The notes under the pieces are model-generated. The model had not been told where the DNA came from and searched no databases. It saw only the letters and a list, made by a program, of their open reading frames with translations. The position numbers and the translations under genes are program-made. This document shows, piece after piece, positions 262 through 59,914 of a stretch of 64,000 nucleotides of DNA. The first letter of the stretch is position 1. Every line of letters begins with the position of its first letter. Origin of the DNA: Luteolibacter flavescens (GTDB lineage Bacteria; Verrucomicrobiota; Verrucomicrobiia; Verrucomicrobiales; Akkermansiaceae); the NCBI RefSeq assembly GCF_025950085.1, contig NZ_JAPDDS010000004.1, positions 1 to 64,000 on the forward strand. The letters run 5' to 3'.

Positions 262-416
262 GGCCTTTACAGGCCGCGCGCTCCCAGGGGGGCGCTGAGG
301 TGGGATGGGGCTTTTGTAGGTGGTTCGCTTGACCGTCTAAGCCGGCTGAAGCCAGCGCTCCCGGCTGCGCCGAGCTGGGAGCCCGCTGGGAGCGCCGGTC
401 AATAGACCGGCCCGAA
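262..416. repeat. Family A and B palindromic repeats (three pieces)
   Basis: Three pieces lie in this gene-free stretch. At 262-288 a palindrome GGCCT-TTAC-AGGCC is followed by a GC-rich spacer and GCTCCCAGG (family A). At 341-360 there is a family B piece, GCCGGCTGAAGCCAGCGCTC. At 386-416 an inverted family A copy has core GCCGGTC-AATA-GACCGGC (394-411). No coding potential stands out between 175 and 484. Confidence 0.65.
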
Positions 417-11786: not shown

Positions 11787-11824
11787 CTCGTGGGAGCGTT
11801 GCTTTTCGGGGATTGGCGGAGCGG

Positions 11825-11979
11825 AGCGCTGGCTTTAGTCGGCGAGTCGTTTTCGCCGGGCATGGTGGAGTGATACTTGCCGGCTAAAGCCAGCACTCCG
11901 CCTGCGGCAGATTTGAGAGGAAGGGTGAGGCGTGCTTTGAGGGTGGCTTCGGGCCGGTCTAATGACCGGCGCTCCCAGG
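11825..11979. repeat. Family A and B repeat cluster
   Basis: An inverted B piece (11825-11844, GCGCTGGCTTTAGTCGGCGA), a forward B piece (11879-11910, GCCGGCTAAAGCCAGC then CTCCGCCTGCGGCAG) and a family A copy with palindrome GCCGGTC-TAAT-GACCGGC (11953-11970) and tail GCTCCCAGG (11971-11979). The two B pieces form an inverted pair. Confidence 0.8.
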
Positions 11980-13045: not shown

Positions 13046-13090
13046 CTTCAGCCGGGGAGTGCTCTTTGCCGGGCATGGGGAGCAATACTT

Positions 13091-13212
13091 GCCGGCTAAA
13101 GCCAGCACTCCGCCTGCGGCAGCTTTGAGAGGAAGGAAGGGGGCTTTGAGCGTGGCTTCGGGCCGGTCTAATGACCGGCGCTCCCAGGAAGGCCAGCCAA
13201 AGCCAGCACTCC
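13091..13212. repeat. Family A and B repeat cluster
   Basis: A family B piece (13091-13122), an ordered spacer also seen at 11911-11950, and a family A copy (core 13162-13179, tail GCTCCCAGG 13180-13188), then a truncated B piece (CCAGCCAAAGCCAGCACTCC, 13192-13211). The order B-spacer-A matches 11879-11979, so this is one composite unit copied twice. Confidence 0.8.
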
Positions 13213-31490: not shown

Positions 31491-31999
31491 GAGCCGGGAG
31501 CGCTGGCTTCAGTCGGCTTGGATGGGCGAGCGAACGATGGTGAGAGCTGCTTCCTTGTTGGGGCAGCCCGCTGGGAGCGCGTGCCACCGGCTCGCTTGGA
31601 CGGATGGCGAAGTGATCTAACAGGTGTGTCGTTGGGGATTTCCTGTGAGCGGGTTTTACCTTGGGTTTGCGGAGGCTTTTGCCCTGGGTTCGCCTACCTG
31701 CCAAGCGGGCCAGTGGCCCGCGCTCCCAGGAGGGGCACAGGGTCTCCGAGGGCATGGAGAACTGCTTCGGGCCGGTCTAATGACCGGCGCTCCCAGGGGG
31801 CAGCGGCGGAGCCGGGAGTGCTGGCTTTAGCCGGCTTGGATGGGTCGGCGAAGTGACGGGGATGGCTGCGGATACTTGAGCCTATCGTGCGAGGCATCGC
31901 TCCGCGTGCGGTGGAAGCAGTGATGGCGGCGGGCTGTTGACGGGAGGCTCGTGGCTATCGGCGACTCGCCGGCTAAAGCTAGCGCTCCGCCTGCGGCAG
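31491..31999. repeat. Large cluster of family A, B and E repeats
   Basis: An inverted B piece (31491-31522), family E copy 1 (31536-31730), family A copies with two different cores (GCGGGCC-AGT-GGCCCGC at 31705-31721 and GCCGGTC-TAAT-GACCGGC at 31771-31788), a further inverted B piece (31812-31836) and a forward B piece (31968-31999). It fills the gap after the rhamnosidase gene. No gene or terminator is seen here. Confidence 0.8.
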
Positions 32000-35917: not shown

Positions 35918-36238
35918 GCCCGCTGGGAGCGCGTGCCACCGGCTCGCTTGGACGGATGGCGAAGTGGCGGGAGAAGCTGCGGCTATCCGAGGTCATTGTG
36001 GTCCGCATCGCTCTGTGTGCGGTTGGAGAAGTTATGGTGGCGGTCTGTTGCGGGAATACTCGCCGGCTAAAGCCAGCGCTCCGCCTGCGGCAAACGGGAG
36101 GTGAGTGGTTGGGCGGGCTGGATGGGTTGCTTCGCCTACTTTCCAAGCGGGCCGGTGGCCGCGCGCTCCCAGGGGGCACAGGGTCTCCATCAGCGGTGAG
36201 AACTGCTTCGGGCCGGTCTGATGACCGGCGCTCCCAGG
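35918..36238. repeat. Cluster of family A, B and E pieces
   Basis: A truncated family E start (GGGAGCGCGTGCCACCGGCT, near 35926-35945), a family B piece (36062-36092), a family A copy with the GCGGGCC core (36147-36172) and one with the GCCGGTC-TGAT-GACCGGC core (36212-36229, tail to 36238). The gene-free stretch 35777-36298 holds only these and the terminator. Confidence 0.75.
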
Positions 36239-47549: not shown

Positions 47550-51701
<4,152 letters not shown>

Positions 51702-51743
51702 GCGGTTAGCGGGTGATCCGCTGATCGAGAATCAAATCACAAG

Positions 51744-51776
51744 CCCGGTCGTGCGAAAGCGCGGCCGGGTTTTTTT
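51744..51776 (+). terminator. Intrinsic terminator after rpoC
   Basis: An 11-bp stem with two G-U pairs (CCCGGTCGTGC 51744-51754, GCGCGGCCGGG 51759-51769), a GAAA tetraloop, then seven T. It closes the tuf-to-rpoC cluster. Confidence 0.92.
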
Positions 51777-51852
51777 GTGGGGAGATGGCCATGCATGAAA
51801 GGGTTCCGTGCGAGTCGCGGGCGGGGCTTGTTTGATCGAGTGGCCTGCCCCG

Positions 51853-51941
51853 TATCGCGGCCCTTCAGGCCGCCGGTCTGTGCCCGTCTATTACCCCGGG
51901 CGCTGCCCGGGGCTGAGGGATGGCCGGGCCTTTGGCCCTGG
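51853..51941 (+). repeat. Family C element, copy 3
   Basis: It runs from TATCGCGGCCCTTCAGGCCG to GGGCCTTTGGCCCTG, with a nested CCCCGGGC-GCT-GCCCGGGG palindrome. Together with the ~50 bases before it (GCGGGCGGGGCTTGTTTGAT) and the 7-bp array after it, it forms a longer direct repeat with 52312-52556. Confidence 0.85.
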
Positions 51942-51950
51942 GAAGGCGGA

Positions 51951-51998
51951 GGATGGAGGATGGAGGATGGAGGATGGAGGATGGAGGATGGAGGATGG
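51951..51998. repeat. 7-bp tandem array GGATGGA (about 7 units)
   Basis: Six full units and a partial one directly follow family C copy 3. A second array of the same unit lies at 52467-52556. Confidence 0.9.
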
Positions 51999-52050
51999 TG
52001 CACTGGTTTTGCCGGCGAGCGTGCTGTGCCAGGGACCTGGGGGATTTTTT

Positions 52051-52082
52051 CAACCACAGATCGACGCGGATGGACACAGATG
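52051..52082. repeat. Dispersed CACAGAT-type repeat
   Basis: The text AACCACAGATCGACGCGGAT followed by GGACACAGATG resembles the CACAGAT-n-CACAGAT repeat seen between genes of many bacteria. Single copy in this window. Confidence 0.5.
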
Positions 52083-52170
52083 AAGAAGGGATGGGTGGAT
52101 GGGGTGAGGAGGTGAAGCGGACGAAGCGGGTAAGGCATGGATGTGATGGCAGGGCGGGGTGATCGGGGTT

Positions 52171-52259
52171 CTCAGGGCCAAGGGCCCGGCCATTCCTCAG
52201 CCCGGGCCATCGGCCCGGGTGTGGACGGGGAATCGATGGCGGCCTGAAGGGCTGCGATA
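52171..52259 (-). repeat. Family C element, copy 4
   Basis: Inverted relative to copies 3 and 5 and lying between them. It keeps CCCGGGCCATCGGCCCGGG and GCGGCCTGAAGGGC. Confidence 0.8.
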
Positions 52260-52368
52260 CGTTTCGGTGGGTCTCGACCGGAAGGAAGGCAACGAGGCGA
52301 TCGCCTTCCGTGAAGGCGTTCCGTGCGGGGCGCGGGCGGGGCTTGTTTGATCGAGCGGGCTTGTCACG

Positions 52369-52456
52369 TATCGCGGCCCTTCAGGCCGCCGATCTGTGCC
52401 CGTCTATTACCCCGGGCGCTGCCCGGGGCTGAGGGATGGCCGGGCCTTTGGCCCTA
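52369..52456 (+). repeat. Family C element, copy 5
   Basis: Nearly identical to copy 3, including the GCCCGTCTATTACCCCGGGC stretch and the flanks on both sides, so the two arose by a recent direct duplication about 515 bases apart. Confidence 0.85.
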
Positions 52457-52466
52457 GGAAGGCGGA

Positions 52467-52556
52467 GGATGGCGGATGGAGGATGGAGGATGGAGGATGG
52501 AGGATGGAGGATGGAGGATGGAGGATGGAGGATGGAGGATGGAGGATGGAGGATGG
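52467..52556. repeat. 7-bp tandem array GGATGGA (about 13 units)
   Basis: One GGATGGC, eleven GGATGGA (52474-52550) and a partial unit. It is longer than the sister array at 51951, which shows that copy number has changed since the duplication. Confidence 0.92.
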
Positions 52557-52602
52557 GGGCCGCTGCTGGAGCGCTGGATTTGGCCGGATTGGGGGGCGAG
52601 CC

Positions 52603-53291
52603 ATGGGTGAGAGCTGCTTCGTTGTGGGAGCAGCCCGCTGGGAGCGCGTGCCACCGGCTCGCTTGGACGGGCGTGCGAGGTGATCTAACAGGCACGCCTC
52701 TTGATGATTTCCTACGAGCGGCTTTTGCCCTGGGTTCGCCGACCTTCCAAGCGGGCCAGTGGCCACGCGCTCCCAGGGGGGCTTAGGGAAAGTCGGAGCC
52801 GGAGTGCTGGCTTCGGCCTGCTTGGATGGGTTTTCGGGAAGGGGGCACGTGAGACCATCGTGGTCCGCATCGCTCCGCGTGCGGTTCGCCGGTAGGGGAG
52901 CGGTGGGTGATGCCCGCCGCCATCGCCGCCATGCCAGGAGGCCGCCCCGTGGTGCCTGCTATCCCGAAGCCACAATAACAAAGCCCGCAGCCAGAACTGC
53001 TTCGCCGCACGCGGAGCGATGCGGACCACGATGGCACAAGGTCTCCGTCGGCCTTGGGAGCTGCTTCCTTGTGTGGAAGCTGTCTGCTGGGAGCGCGTGC
53101 CACCGGCTCGCTTGGACGGATAGGCGAAGTGATCTAACAGATACGCCTCTTGGGTATTTGCTACGAGCGGCTTTTGCCCTGAGTTCGCCGACCTTCCAAG
53201 CGGGCCGGTGGCCACGCGCTCCCAGGGGGCGCAGGGTCGCGGCGGGTATGAAGAGCTGCTTCGGGCCGGTCTGATGACCGGCGCTCCCAGG
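52603..53291. repeat. Family E copies 2 and 3 with family A units
   Basis: Two ~180-bp copies (52603-52790 and 53057-53230) share GGGAGCGCGTGCCACCGGCT, the GGTGATCTAACAGG or AGTGATCTAACAG stretch, TACGAGCGGCTTTTGCCCTG, and an A-type end (GCGGGCC core with GCTCCCAGG). Between them is an inverted pair of ~30 bases (52854-52887 and 53005-53034, GGTCCGCATCGCTCCGCGTG core). A family A copy with the TGAT loop follows at 53265-53291. No gene is seen here. Confidence 0.8.
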
Positions 53292-53325
53292 GGAGCGGCG
53301 CGGGCGGGGCACTCCGCTTGCGGAA

Positions 53326-53417
53326 GCACTCCGCCGTTAGCACCTCCGCCGTTAGCACCTGCGGCGTTAGCACCTGCGGCGTGGCACCTGCGGCGTGGCA
53401 CCTGCGGCACTCCGCCT
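53326..53417. repeat. 14-15-bp tandem repeat at the 3' side of ftsK
   Basis: Six or so units of the form GCACCTGCGGCGTTA or GCACCTGCGGCGTG, with early variants GCACTCCGCCGTTA, ending in GCACTCCGCCTAC. It ends 12 bases before the ftsK stop (53430). Confidence 0.85.
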
Positions 53418-53429
53418 ACAGCGCGGCGC

Positions 53430-55904
53430 TTACTTGAGGTAGACTTCGCGGGGCTTGGCGCCGTCGCCGGGGCCTACGACGCCGCGGGCTTCGAGGATGT
53501 CCACCATGCGGGCGGCACGGGTGTAGCCGAGGCGGAGGCGGCGCTGGAGCAGGGAGGTGCTGCACTTCTGCTCCTGGCGGGCGACCTCGATGCAGCGCAT
53601 GATGAGTTCTTCATCGGCGGCGGAGATGTCTTCCTCGCCGTCGTCATCGTCGCCGCCATTGTCGATGGAGCGCTGGATATCGACCTCGAAATTCGGCTCG
53701 GCCTGGGCGGCGCAGTGGTCCACGAGGCGCTCGACTTCCTCGTCGGAGACAAAGGCTCCCTGCGAGCGCTCGAGCTTCGCGGAGCCGGGCGGGAGGTAGA
53801 GCATGTCGCCCTTGCCGACGAGCTTGTCGGCGCCCTTCGTGTCGAGGATGACGCGGGAGTCGAGCTGCGAGGAGACCTGGAAGGCGATGCGGCAGGGGAT
53901 ATTCGCCTTGATGATGCCGGTGACGACGTCCGCGCGCGGGGTCTGCGTGGCGATGATGAGGTGGATGCCGGCGGCGCGGGCCTTTTGGGCGATGCGCGCG
54001 ATGCACATCTCGACGTCGGCCGGGGCGGTCTGCATGAGGTCCGCGAGCTCGTCGATGAGGACGACGATGTAGGGGTAGCGGTCCGGGATCTTGTCTTCCT
54101 CGATGGGCAGCTCGTCCTCGTCGGCCTCGGGTCCGAGTTCGCCGGACTCGAGGGCGGCGGCGATGGACTCGATGGACTCCATGTCCACTTCCTCGTCGGC
54201 ATTCCACGGCGGGGTGTCCTGCTCGGTCTCCTCGGCCGGGGTCTCGGTTTTCTCCGGGCGGACGCGGTTGTTGAAGGAGTCGAAATTCCGCACGCCTGTC
54301 TTCGCGAAGACGCGGTAGCGCTTCTCCATTTCATTCACCACCCACTTGAGCGCGGCGACGACCTTCTTCGGGTCGGTGACGACGGGGACGACGAGGTGGG
54401 GCAGCTTGTTGTACATCTGCATCTCGACGACCTTCGGGTCCACCATGATGAAGCGGAGTTCATCCGGGCCGAACTTGAAGAGCATCGAGGCGATGATCGA
54501 GTTGATGCAGACGGACTTGCCGGAGCCCGTGGCACCGGCGACGAGCAGGTGGGGCATGGCAGCGAGGTCGCCGATGACGGTCTTGCCATAGACGTCCTTG
54601 CCGAGGGCGAGGGGGATCTTCTTCTTCGCGGAGCGGAACTCCGGGTCCTGTAGTAGTTCGCGGAGGGGGACGGAGACCTTCTGGGAATTCGCGAGCTCGA
54701 TGCCGACGGTGTCCTTGCCGGGAATGGGGGCGAGGATATTGATGCGCTCGGCGCAGGTGGCGCGGGCGAGGTCGGCCTCGAGCTGGGAGATGCGGGAGAC
54801 ACGGAGGCCGGTGGAGGGGTAGATCTCGTAGCGGGTGATGGTGGGGCCGCGGGTGATGTCGCCGGGCGTGACCTCGATGCCGAAGGCGCGGAGCGTCTCG
54901 ACGATGGTGCGCTGGGTGGCGAGGAGCTCGTCGCGGTTCGCCTCCGGTGCTTCTTCCTCCGGGAGGGCGTCGAGCAGGTCGAAGCCCGGGAGATCGTAGT
55001 CTTCGAAGCCGGCGGTGGAGAGGGAGAGATGGCTGGCGGACTTCCGCTCGAAGGGCTTGTCGCCGGGCTTTGGCGCCTCGATGCGGCGCTGGGAGGCATC
55101 GAAGATCTGGGGCGCGGGGGTTTCGCGCAGCGGGAGCTCCTGCTGGGAATTTGGCGGGGTCTCGGGAGTGACGGCGGGTGCGGTGGGGGGCACCTTGCCG
55201 GTCTCGCGTTCCTTGCGGCGGCGCTCGCGTTCGCGCTCGCGCTCGGCGGCGCGGAGTTCTTCCTTCGCGGTCTCGAGGTTGGTGAGTTCGCGGCGCTCGC
55301 GGAAGGCGGCGATCCACCCGGAGACGATGGCGGCGCAGCCCTTCAGGAAGCTGATGGGGCGCTGGCCGGTGATGAGGATGAGGGCGACGAGGTAGGTGCC
55401 GCCGAGGAGGATGAGCGAGCCGACCTTTCCGATGAGCTTCAGGAAGATGAAGTGCGCGAGCAGGTAGCCGGTGACGCCGCCGGGGCCGGTGAAGTCATCC
55501 GCATGGCCGCCGAGTGCGTGCATGAAGGCGGCACCGCTGAGGGTGAGCACGGTGAAGCCGAGCATGGTGCGCGGCCACAGCCGGGCATCGAAGACGAGCT
55601 TCGCCACGCCGAACCAGATGAGCGCGACCGGCACGATGTAGCCCGCCGCGCCGAAGAGCGACACCTGGGCGAAGCCGAGGAAGGCACCGACGATGCCGAT
55701 GAAATTGTGCGTGGGCTCGCCCGGCGGCGTGGGCTCGGCGAAGGCCTCCATGAGGCCGGTGGAGGGGAGGTCCCGCGGCGTGTAGGAGATGACCGAGAGG
55801 AAGGCGATGAGGCCCGCACAAATCAGGATGGCCCCGACGACCTCATTGGACCATCGGGGGACTTCGGGGGCCTCGCCCCGCTTGCGGTTGTCACTCTTTG
55901 CCAT
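53430..55904 (-). CDS. ftsK: DNA translocase FtsK/SpoIIIE
   Basis: An 824-residue protein. About four membrane helices lie near residues 18-42, 72-96, 108-132 and 150-185. A charged linker (AERERERERRRKERET, PPTAPAVTPETPPNSQQE) reaches the motor domain. Walker A is VAGATGSGKS (about 452-461), Walker B VVLIDELADLM (about 612), then ATQTPRADVVTG and the gamma winged-helix domain at the C-terminus (SLLQRRLRLGYTRAARMVDILEARGVVG). It pumps chromosome ends through the septum. An acidic insert of about 60 residues precedes Walker B. ATG 55904; an open frame to 55997 lacks helix character. Confidence 0.95.
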   Translation of the reverse strand: MAKSDNRKRGEAPEVPRWSNEVVGAILICAGLIAFLSVISYTPRDLPSTGLMEAFAEPTPPGEPTHNFIGIVGAFLGFAQVSLFGAAGYIVPVALIWFGVAKLVFDARLWPRTMLGFTVLTLSGAAFMHALGGHADDFTGPGGVTGYLLAHFIFLKLIGKVGSLILLGGTYLVALILITGQRPISFLKGCAAIVSGWIAAFRERRELTNLETAKEELRAAERERERERRRKERETGKVPPTAPAVTPETPPNSQQELPLRETPAPQIFDASQRRIEAPKPGDKPFERKSASHLSLSTAGFEDYDLPGFDLLDALPEEEAPEANRDELLATQRTIVETLRAFGIEVTPGDITRGPTITRYEIYPSTGLRVSRISQLEADLARATCAERINILAPIPGKDTVGIELANSQKVSVPLRELLQDPEFRSAKKKIPLALGKDVYGKTVIGDLAAMPHLLVAGATGSGKSVCINSIIASMLFKFGPDELRFIMVDPKVVEMQMYNKLPHLVVPVVTDPKKVVAALKWVVNEMEKRYRVFAKTGVRNFDSFNNRVRPEKTETPAEETEQDTPPWNADEEVDMESIESIAAALESGELGPEADEDELPIEEDKIPDRYPYIVVLIDELADLMQTAPADVEMCIARIAQKARAAGIHLIIATQTPRADVVTGIIKANIPCRIAFQVSSQLDSRVILDTKGADKLVGKGDMLYLPPGSAKLERSQGAFVSDEEVERLVDHCAAQAEPNFEVDIQRSIDNGGDDDDGEEDISAADEELIMRCIEVARQEQKCSTSLLQRRLRLGYTRAARMVDILEARGVVGPGDGAKPREVYLK

Positions 55905-59873: not shown

Positions 59874-59884
59874 TGGTCATTCGG

Positions 59885-59909
59885 GCGGAATGAATTCCGC
59901 GCTCCCAGG
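59885..59909 (+). repeat. Family A unit with a different palindrome
   Basis: Core GCGGAA-TGAA-TTCCGC (59885-59900) followed by the constant tail GCTCCCAGG (59901-59909). Only the tail and the preceding TCGG match the other family A units. Confidence 0.75.
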
Positions 59910-59914
59910 GAGTC

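Follow-up and report, generated by a model that had tools for sequence, protein, structure and literature searches.

The hairpin units that recur in the window, by which we mean the whole 64-kb stretch of Luteolibacter flavescens DNA analysed here, are very probably REP elements, arranged in mosaic clusters and in outward-tagged, REPIN-like pairs, which were most likely spread by REP-associated tyrosine transposases (RAYTs). The repeats themselves are real, and they constitute a REP/RAYT system with an unusual tag that is orphaned in the organism's own assembly (97.5% complete, 71 contigs). RAYTs bordered by the same units were found in relatives for two of the head families, namely E in the congener G009 and D in the congener G008.

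Repeat units and copy numbers

Read from its tail, a unit consists of the tag CTGGGAGC, which is the tail of the first-pass annotation on the other strand, and then a stem-loop. A heads have the form GCGGGCC-RGT-GGCC-N-CGC with a one-base bulge and C heads the form GCG-N-GCC-RGT-GGC-N-CGC, the two being forms of one family (A/C), while B heads read GCCGGTC-TRAT-GACCGGC, E heads GCGGAAT-GA-ATTCCGC and D heads GCCGGCT-RA-AGCCAGC. Exact-pattern copies in the genome number 42 for A/C (a count that excludes bulged A copies), 54 for B, 50 for E and 54 for D. A/C units occur in none of the other genomes of the 18 searched in the genus, and B units occur in 3 other genomes of 57, with 2, 2 and 1 copies. 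The units in the window are listed below.

31701 to 31730, plus strand: A/C unit with the fully paired stem GCGGGCC-AGT-GGCCCGC, followed by GCTCCCAGG; the first unit of the first-pass annotation and the sole G-C fourth pair among the 42 exact copies
31768 to 31797, plus strand: B unit GCCGGTC-TAAT-GACCGGC, followed by GCTCCCAGG; the second unit of that annotation, 38 bp past the A/C unit in the same orientation
31571 to 31599, minus strand: C unit in the A.A mismatch form, inverted, tag outward, paired with the unit at 31701
31497 to 31521, minus strand: D unit that opens the cluster on the left and differs from the consensus by 1 mismatch
31815 to 31839, minus strand: D unit to the right of B, 1 mismatch
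35923 to 36238: cluster of C (35923-35951, minus), D (36058-36082, plus), A with bulge (36143-36173, plus) and B (36209-36238, plus)
52568 to 53291: seven-unit cluster in the rpoC-ftsK gap, with D minus at 52568, C minus at 52638, A plus at 52747, D minus at 52801, C minus at 53087, A plus at 53196 and B plus at 53262
337 to 414: D unit (337-361, plus) and B unit (386-414, minus) with the tail GCTCCCAGC
11823 to 11979: two D-like units with 4 mismatches each (11823 minus, 11875 plus) and a B unit (11950-11979, plus)
13087 to 13188, plus strand: D-like unit (13087-13111, 4 mismatches) and B unit (13159-13188)
59880 to 59911, plus strand: E unit GCGGAAT-GA-ATTCCGC, followed by GCTCCCAGG; head identical to that at both ends of the G009 RAYT
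262 to 288, plus strand: single copy of GGCCT-TTAC-AGGCC, followed by GCGC and GCTCCCAGG; 3' half as in A units

The locus at 31497-31839 is a five-unit cluster, and the pair at 31705 and 31771 within it, two head types adjacent in one orientation, is as the first-pass annotation described it. The same holds for its B copies at 11953, 13162, 31771, 36212 and 53265, while the copy reported at 394 is present, but with its tail on the minus strand, and for the heads placed at 52748 and 53197 the actual starts are 52751 and 53200. Three of its four head types (GCCGGTC, GCGGGCC and GCGGAA) recur, but no other copy of GGCCT-TTAC-AGGCC (at 262) turned up at the 147 GCTCCCAG sites sampled, and it is doubtful that this hairpin is a head type of its own. 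Overlooked were the D type (GCCGGCT-RA-AGCCAGC followed by GCTCC) and the inverted C units at 31571, 35923, 52638 and 53087.

The tail, earlier taken to be constant behind differing heads, is shared by several heads and common in part to the families, but it is not wholly constant. It reads GCTCCCAG followed by G or C in B and A/C, mostly GTTCCCAGTGG in E, where the normal end is GTTCCCAG, and RCTCC followed by C or G in D. Inside each family the tag is constant apart from C/T variation in E, of whose copies 42 of 50 end in GTTCC and 8 of 50, the window copy among them, in GCTCC.

GCTCCCAGG occurs 11 times in the 64-kb window, all on the plus strand, against 1.1 expected, and none of 100 shuffles reached 11; genome-wide it occurs 146 times in 5.9 Mb, against 41 for the pattern read backwards. 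As a larger sample we used 464 kb of the window's contig (C4:1-464000, window included), in which gene calls with a simple hexamer model gave 323 genes, 85% coding and 15% intergenic sequence. This sample holds 58 GCTCCCAG sites, 45 of them intergenic, and at 21 of these 45 a perfect stem of at least 7 bp ends at most 2 nt from the tail, compared with 0.09 expected when the upstream sequence was shuffled, 1 of 142 intergenic sites for 30 permuted 8-mers, and 0.9% of 4000 random intergenic positions. Heads no more palindromic than random sequence would have been fatal to the earlier proposal, which with 21 of 45 against 0.09 remains standing. A mismatch-tolerant scan of the 464 kb yielded 75 units (B 23, D 20, C 12, E 9, A 8, A variant 3), and 74 of the 75 mapped to the 15% of the sample that is intergenic.

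Stem pairing

According to our own-script pair count, on a sample part of which was selected by tail matches, stems are perfectly paired in 59 of 67 B, 31 of 36 E, 2 of 63 D and 4 of 33 C units. D stems carry C.A at pair 3 in 58 of 63 cases and C stems A.A at pair 4 in 24 of 33, and pair 4 of the 42 exact A/C copies is A.A in 34, C.A in 4, A-T in 2 and G-C and T-A in 1 each, which makes 4 Watson-Crick pairs. Among the D copies listed for G008, most have the paired form. The earlier statement that both arms stay complementary holds for B and E, which are mostly paired, but A/C and D usually have one fixed mismatch or bulge. We ran the count of arm covariation that had been proposed, and it revealed few compensating changes inside the families: pairing is preserved by a two-sided change 0 times in B, once in E, 6 times (of 7 two-sided) in D and 5 times in C, the last scored against a mismatched consensus, and one-sided changes number 13, 12, 24 and 6, respectively. 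With few double compensations and two families carrying a fixed mismatch, the case for selected structure is weak within families. The fixed stem mismatch may recall the bulge of the E. coli REP, or it may reflect copying from one master.

Arrangement and gene context

Inverted pairs of C and A with their tags outside are spaced at 80, 80, 80, 83 and 102 bp. A B unit stands in tandem behind E, in 6 of 7 cases at 46 or 47 bp, four tandem pairs of C and D are 45-49 bp apart, and the nested order B' E' ... E B was seen twice. Adjacent pairs within 150 bp (n = 42) comprise 18 in tandem, 15 with tags outside and 9 with tags inside, and it speaks against our preferred explanation that tandem pairs (18/42) outnumber outward ones (15/42), unlike in most published families. 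Units lie in 15 of 58 convergent, 8 of 166 tandem and 2 of 58 divergent gaps.

No A, B, C or E unit is present in the stretches beside ftsK examined in 8 congeners, and D-like units occur there only in G011, again with a RAYT; rpoC was not found in these congener stretches, so that this is not a strict empty-site comparison with the seven-unit cluster. The G011 RAYT with its D-like units directly adjoins ftsK (L166 2147-2877), the same neighbourhood that holds the seven-unit cluster in L. flavescens. Because of this position a RAYT relic was suspected at window 51600-53500, a candidate rejected after tblastn returned only short matches (best E 0.015).

Other repeats are also found in the rpoC-ftsK gap. 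The palindromes GCGGCCCTTCAGGCC, GCCCGGGGCTGAGG and GGGCCTTTGGCCCT recur there as a set (window 51857-52460), and the set also flanks the IS200-like Y1 gene of L009 (L009 1149-2473); with 10, 5 and 6 copies in 464 kb, all intergenic, it is perhaps a REP-like family of the L009 enzyme itself. A further repeat, GCATCGCTCCGCGTGCGG, adjoins the units at about 52860 and 53005 of the window (21 copies in 464 kb, all intergenic), and tandem heptamers GGATGGA stand at about 51957-51999 and at 52466-52557.

Transposase genes in the L. flavescens genome

The look-up of a RAYT-type gene that the first-pass annotation had suggested turned up no RAYT in the own assembly, only IS200-like Y1 genes. Model NF047646 has RAYT matches in 17 of the 18 genus genomes, 14 above cut-off, the own genome being the exception, and a congener RAYT used as query finds relatives in 16 of 18 genomes, the own genome and the 61%-complete G005 being the two without. 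A search of the own assembly for RAYT fragments to E 10, with a profile of 13 of the 18 RAYTs (L137, L139, L144, L152 and L153 left out), gave a single match with E 0.06, inside an IS200-like gene. PF01797 occurs in this genome only in three IS200-like genes with open frames of 151-161 aa; two of them were scanned and both lie above the IS200 model cut-off. The one in L009 also matches the RAYT model, but weakly, with 24.5 bits against a cut-off of 80. No RAYT bordered by the same units was thus found in this 97.5% complete assembly.

An origin as IS200/IS605-derived repeats was rejected, as the same hairpins are not at the TnpA gene ends of the three loci examined. The 3.3-kb loci of the three IS200-like genes contain no CTCCCA-type tail with a stem of at least 5 bp, and other palindromes stand in their flanks. 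TTAGCCGGTGGC-GTGA-GCCACCGG and GCCCCGGAGGGGC flank the third Y1 gene on both sides (L011 1300-2200), the former type having 2 copies in 464 kb, both intergenic, and the latter none.

RAYTs of congeners, their heads and their tags

The G009 RAYT, a 247-aa ORF (L055 1438-2181), has an E unit at each end with the tags outside, both units reaching into the respective end of the longest ORF. Against NF047646 the protein obtains 80.7 bits (cut-off 80), and in the PDB it matches TnpAREP 4er8 alone at E<=0.001. The gene lies between ureG and an ORF without NCBIfam match, which we take to be ureD by position, and so apparently within a urease gene cluster. The G008 RAYT is 61% identical to it and has D units on both sides. 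Across the 18 genomes, E copies number 50 in the own genome, 58 in G009, 29 in G007, 3 in G012, 3 in G011 and 0 in the others, and D copies 54 in the own genome, 59 in G008, 15 in G011, 12 in G013, 10 in G006, 5 in G002, 5 in G012, 3 in G014, 2 in G017 and 0 in the others, which places most E copies in G009 and the own genome and most D copies in G008 and the own genome. G007 stands against a simple rule linking E copies to the E RAYT, as it has 29 E copies, yet its best match to that RAYT is 38% identical. Among the listed loci examined (up to 30 per search), none of the RAYTs had A/C or B heads. These congeners, through the G009 RAYT with E units and the G008 RAYT with D units, give good support to the earlier suggestion that an enzyme spread a REP-like element. 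Many more RAYTs with palindromes of their own exist in the genus (e.g., L146, L147, L053, L056, L140); some are of the classic GTAG kind, and their stems include GCTGCGA and GCGAGCT.

Tags were read by eye at the 18 best-matching RAYT loci, and a tree was built from the 18 RAYTs and two GTAG RAYTs; the RAYTs examined have the motifs NHVH and YIRxNP. The tag is of the GGAGC type at 6 loci, GGACC at 8, GGGAC at 1 and GGTGC at 1, and none was found at 2, with mixed tags at L133 (GGAGC type with GGAAC) and L152 (GGACC with GGAAC). L133, L134 and L135 group in a clade (0.97) that combines a single tag, GGAGC, with three heads, GCGGAAT, GCCGGCT and GCTGACT; only one side of L135 showed a perfect stem, and D-like units with 3 mismatches stand on both sides. 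The head GCGGACT occurs with three tags, GGAGC (L136), GGACC (L137, L149, L150) and GGTGC (L139). Both parts, tag and head, therefore change, since a clade shares its tag across three heads and one head takes three tags. Related RAYTs do combine one tag with different heads, and recognition of the common tail by one enzyme is possible, being compatible with three related RAYTs that share a tag and differ in head; for other RAYTs, the biochemistry in PMC8266576 shows that the palindrome matters too.

From the GT[AG]G rule, CTGGGAGC departs by one base, its first tag base being C and not G, which leaves it one base from GTGG. At congener stems only GGANC-like letters adjoin (GGAGC, GGACC, GGAAC), a larger departure than that of the own genome. 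A far-reaching reading, which we put forward tentatively and consider rather unlikely, would have the RAYTs of the genus use a GGANC-like guide in place of GT[AG]G, with tag and stem evolving independently, and in the own genome a single lost RAYT would have mobilised several stem types in trans via the tag common to them. What remains would be four orphan families, each with about 50 copies and two with a fixed stem mismatch.

Origin of the units and alternative explanations

RAYTs belong to the HUH enzymes, which bind the single strand in its folded form and transfer a unit or a pair of units to new sites. They would have moved the copies of the own genome and would since have been lost from it, or would sit in an assembly gap, and the copies would now be passively inherited, surviving where insertion does least harm. 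The common tail behind different heads would go back to related RAYTs, which retain the tag as the stems diverge.

That the units are instead RNA hairpins in 3' UTRs, ending or stabilising transcripts and retained for the RNA fold, with their repetition incidental, is very unlikely. Their preference for convergent gaps (15/58 versus 8/166 tandem and 2/58 divergent) would agree with such a role, as would the variety of heads, given that pairing persists in most B and E stems, but mobile REPs could have the former preference too, since their insertion there would do little harm. Moreover, compensation is rare (one-sided to two-sided changes of 13/0 in B, 12/1 in E and 24/7 in D), the D and C families have a fixed mismatch, there is no RNA reason for the tail and the clusters, tandem gaps contain several of the units, a few others are upstream of both neighbouring genes, and no Rfam family besides tRNA (two tRNAs) was found in the window. 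An intrinsic terminator was rejected on direct reading of 11 window sites, where no T run follows the stem, which continues into GCTCCCAGG and then mostly G-rich DNA.

It is possible, if on the doubtful side, that a RAYT lies in a gap of the draft and that the families are active, which would affect only the word orphan. The assembly is 97.5% complete in 71 contigs, and some units lie about 600 bp or less from contig ends (C2, C12, C17, C22); against this, neither PF01797, NF047646, the congener RAYT nor the 13-row profile detected a RAYT or a fragment of one, and two or more RAYTs would need to be missing. Mobilisation by the three IS200-like Y1 transposases of the own genome in place of RAYTs is extremely unlikely. 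They are the sole PF01797 genes in the assembly, two of them above the IS200 cut-off, but their 3.3-kb loci are without a stem of at least 5 bp beside a CTCCCA-type tail and have other palindromes in the flanks.

If spread by RAYTs is correct, the REP/RAYT rule is no longer confined to the GT[AG]G tag of the literature. Among the congeners, related enzymes with separately varying tags and stems at their sides would then provide a natural series, which makes it testable what part the enzyme reads, and the own genome would be a candidate for following REP families after enzyme loss.

Comparison with known systems

The units share the main features of REPs and REPINs, being short extragenic palindromes in many copies (21/45 versus 0.09; 74/75 intergenic; 42-54 copies per family). 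They carry a tag at the foot of one arm, and inverted pairs whose tags face outward occur (15/42 close pairs). Like GTAG-superfamily REPs and REPINs of Pseudomonas, Stenotrophomonas, Escherichia and Opitutus terrae (PMC3733652, PMC3686654), they are palindromes tagged at one foot, with several heads per genome, intergenic clusters, inverted pairs and RAYTs bordered by their own REPs, and the Pseudomonas classes GTGGGAGGGGGCTTGCCCCC and GTAGGAGC... (PMC3686654 Table 1) come close to CTGGGAGC plus stem. They differ from this superfamily in the first tag base C, in the frequency of mixed tandem pairs and in an assembly without RAYT. Measured against PMC3733652, the tag CTGGGAGC is not the terminal GTAG or GTGG/GYRG of the GTAG superfamily, and the unit ends are not the terminal CGTC, TGTC or CCTC of the CGTC superfamily. 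Within the open-licence papers searched, PMC3733652 (Opitutus terrae) is the only literature found on such REPs in this group.

With E. coli REP/TnpAREP (PMC8266576; PDB 4er8) the system shares a RAYT domain related in sequence and a conserved stem mismatch, as in A/C and D, and the E. coli REP bulge is described as needed for activity in PMC8266576; GTAG is essential in E. coli, and the stem sequences differ. TnpAY1 subclass 2.6 and class 3 (PMC6006769) are similar in that RAYT-like genes are bordered by non-GT[AG]G hairpins, the class 3 foot being CnGA, but 2.6 is found mainly in Bacteroidetes and class 3 mainly in Planctomycetes, Acidobacteria and Proteobacteria, and the congener RAYT motifs NHVH and YIRxNP are unlike the class 3 Y-motif. 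GGAG as a word start is absent from the main texts of PMC3733652, PMC8266576 and PMC6006769, and GGAG stands inside the Pseudomonas REPs of PMC3686654.

REP families without a cognate RAYT are known as well (PMC3686654, PMC8049555), and resemble ours in their many copies and in a RAYT in related strains. Such families appeared quite often (PMC3686654), loss of REPtrons is mentioned for E. coli strains (PMC3733652), and E. coli genomes with REPINs and no RAYT are described (PMC8049555). Unlike these, the L. flavescens genome has four families together that share much of one tail. For the most part, then, the units belong to a well-known class of selfish DNA, and what is unusual here is their sequence tag, the regular tandem mixed pairs and the presence of several tail-sharing families in one RAYT-less assembly.
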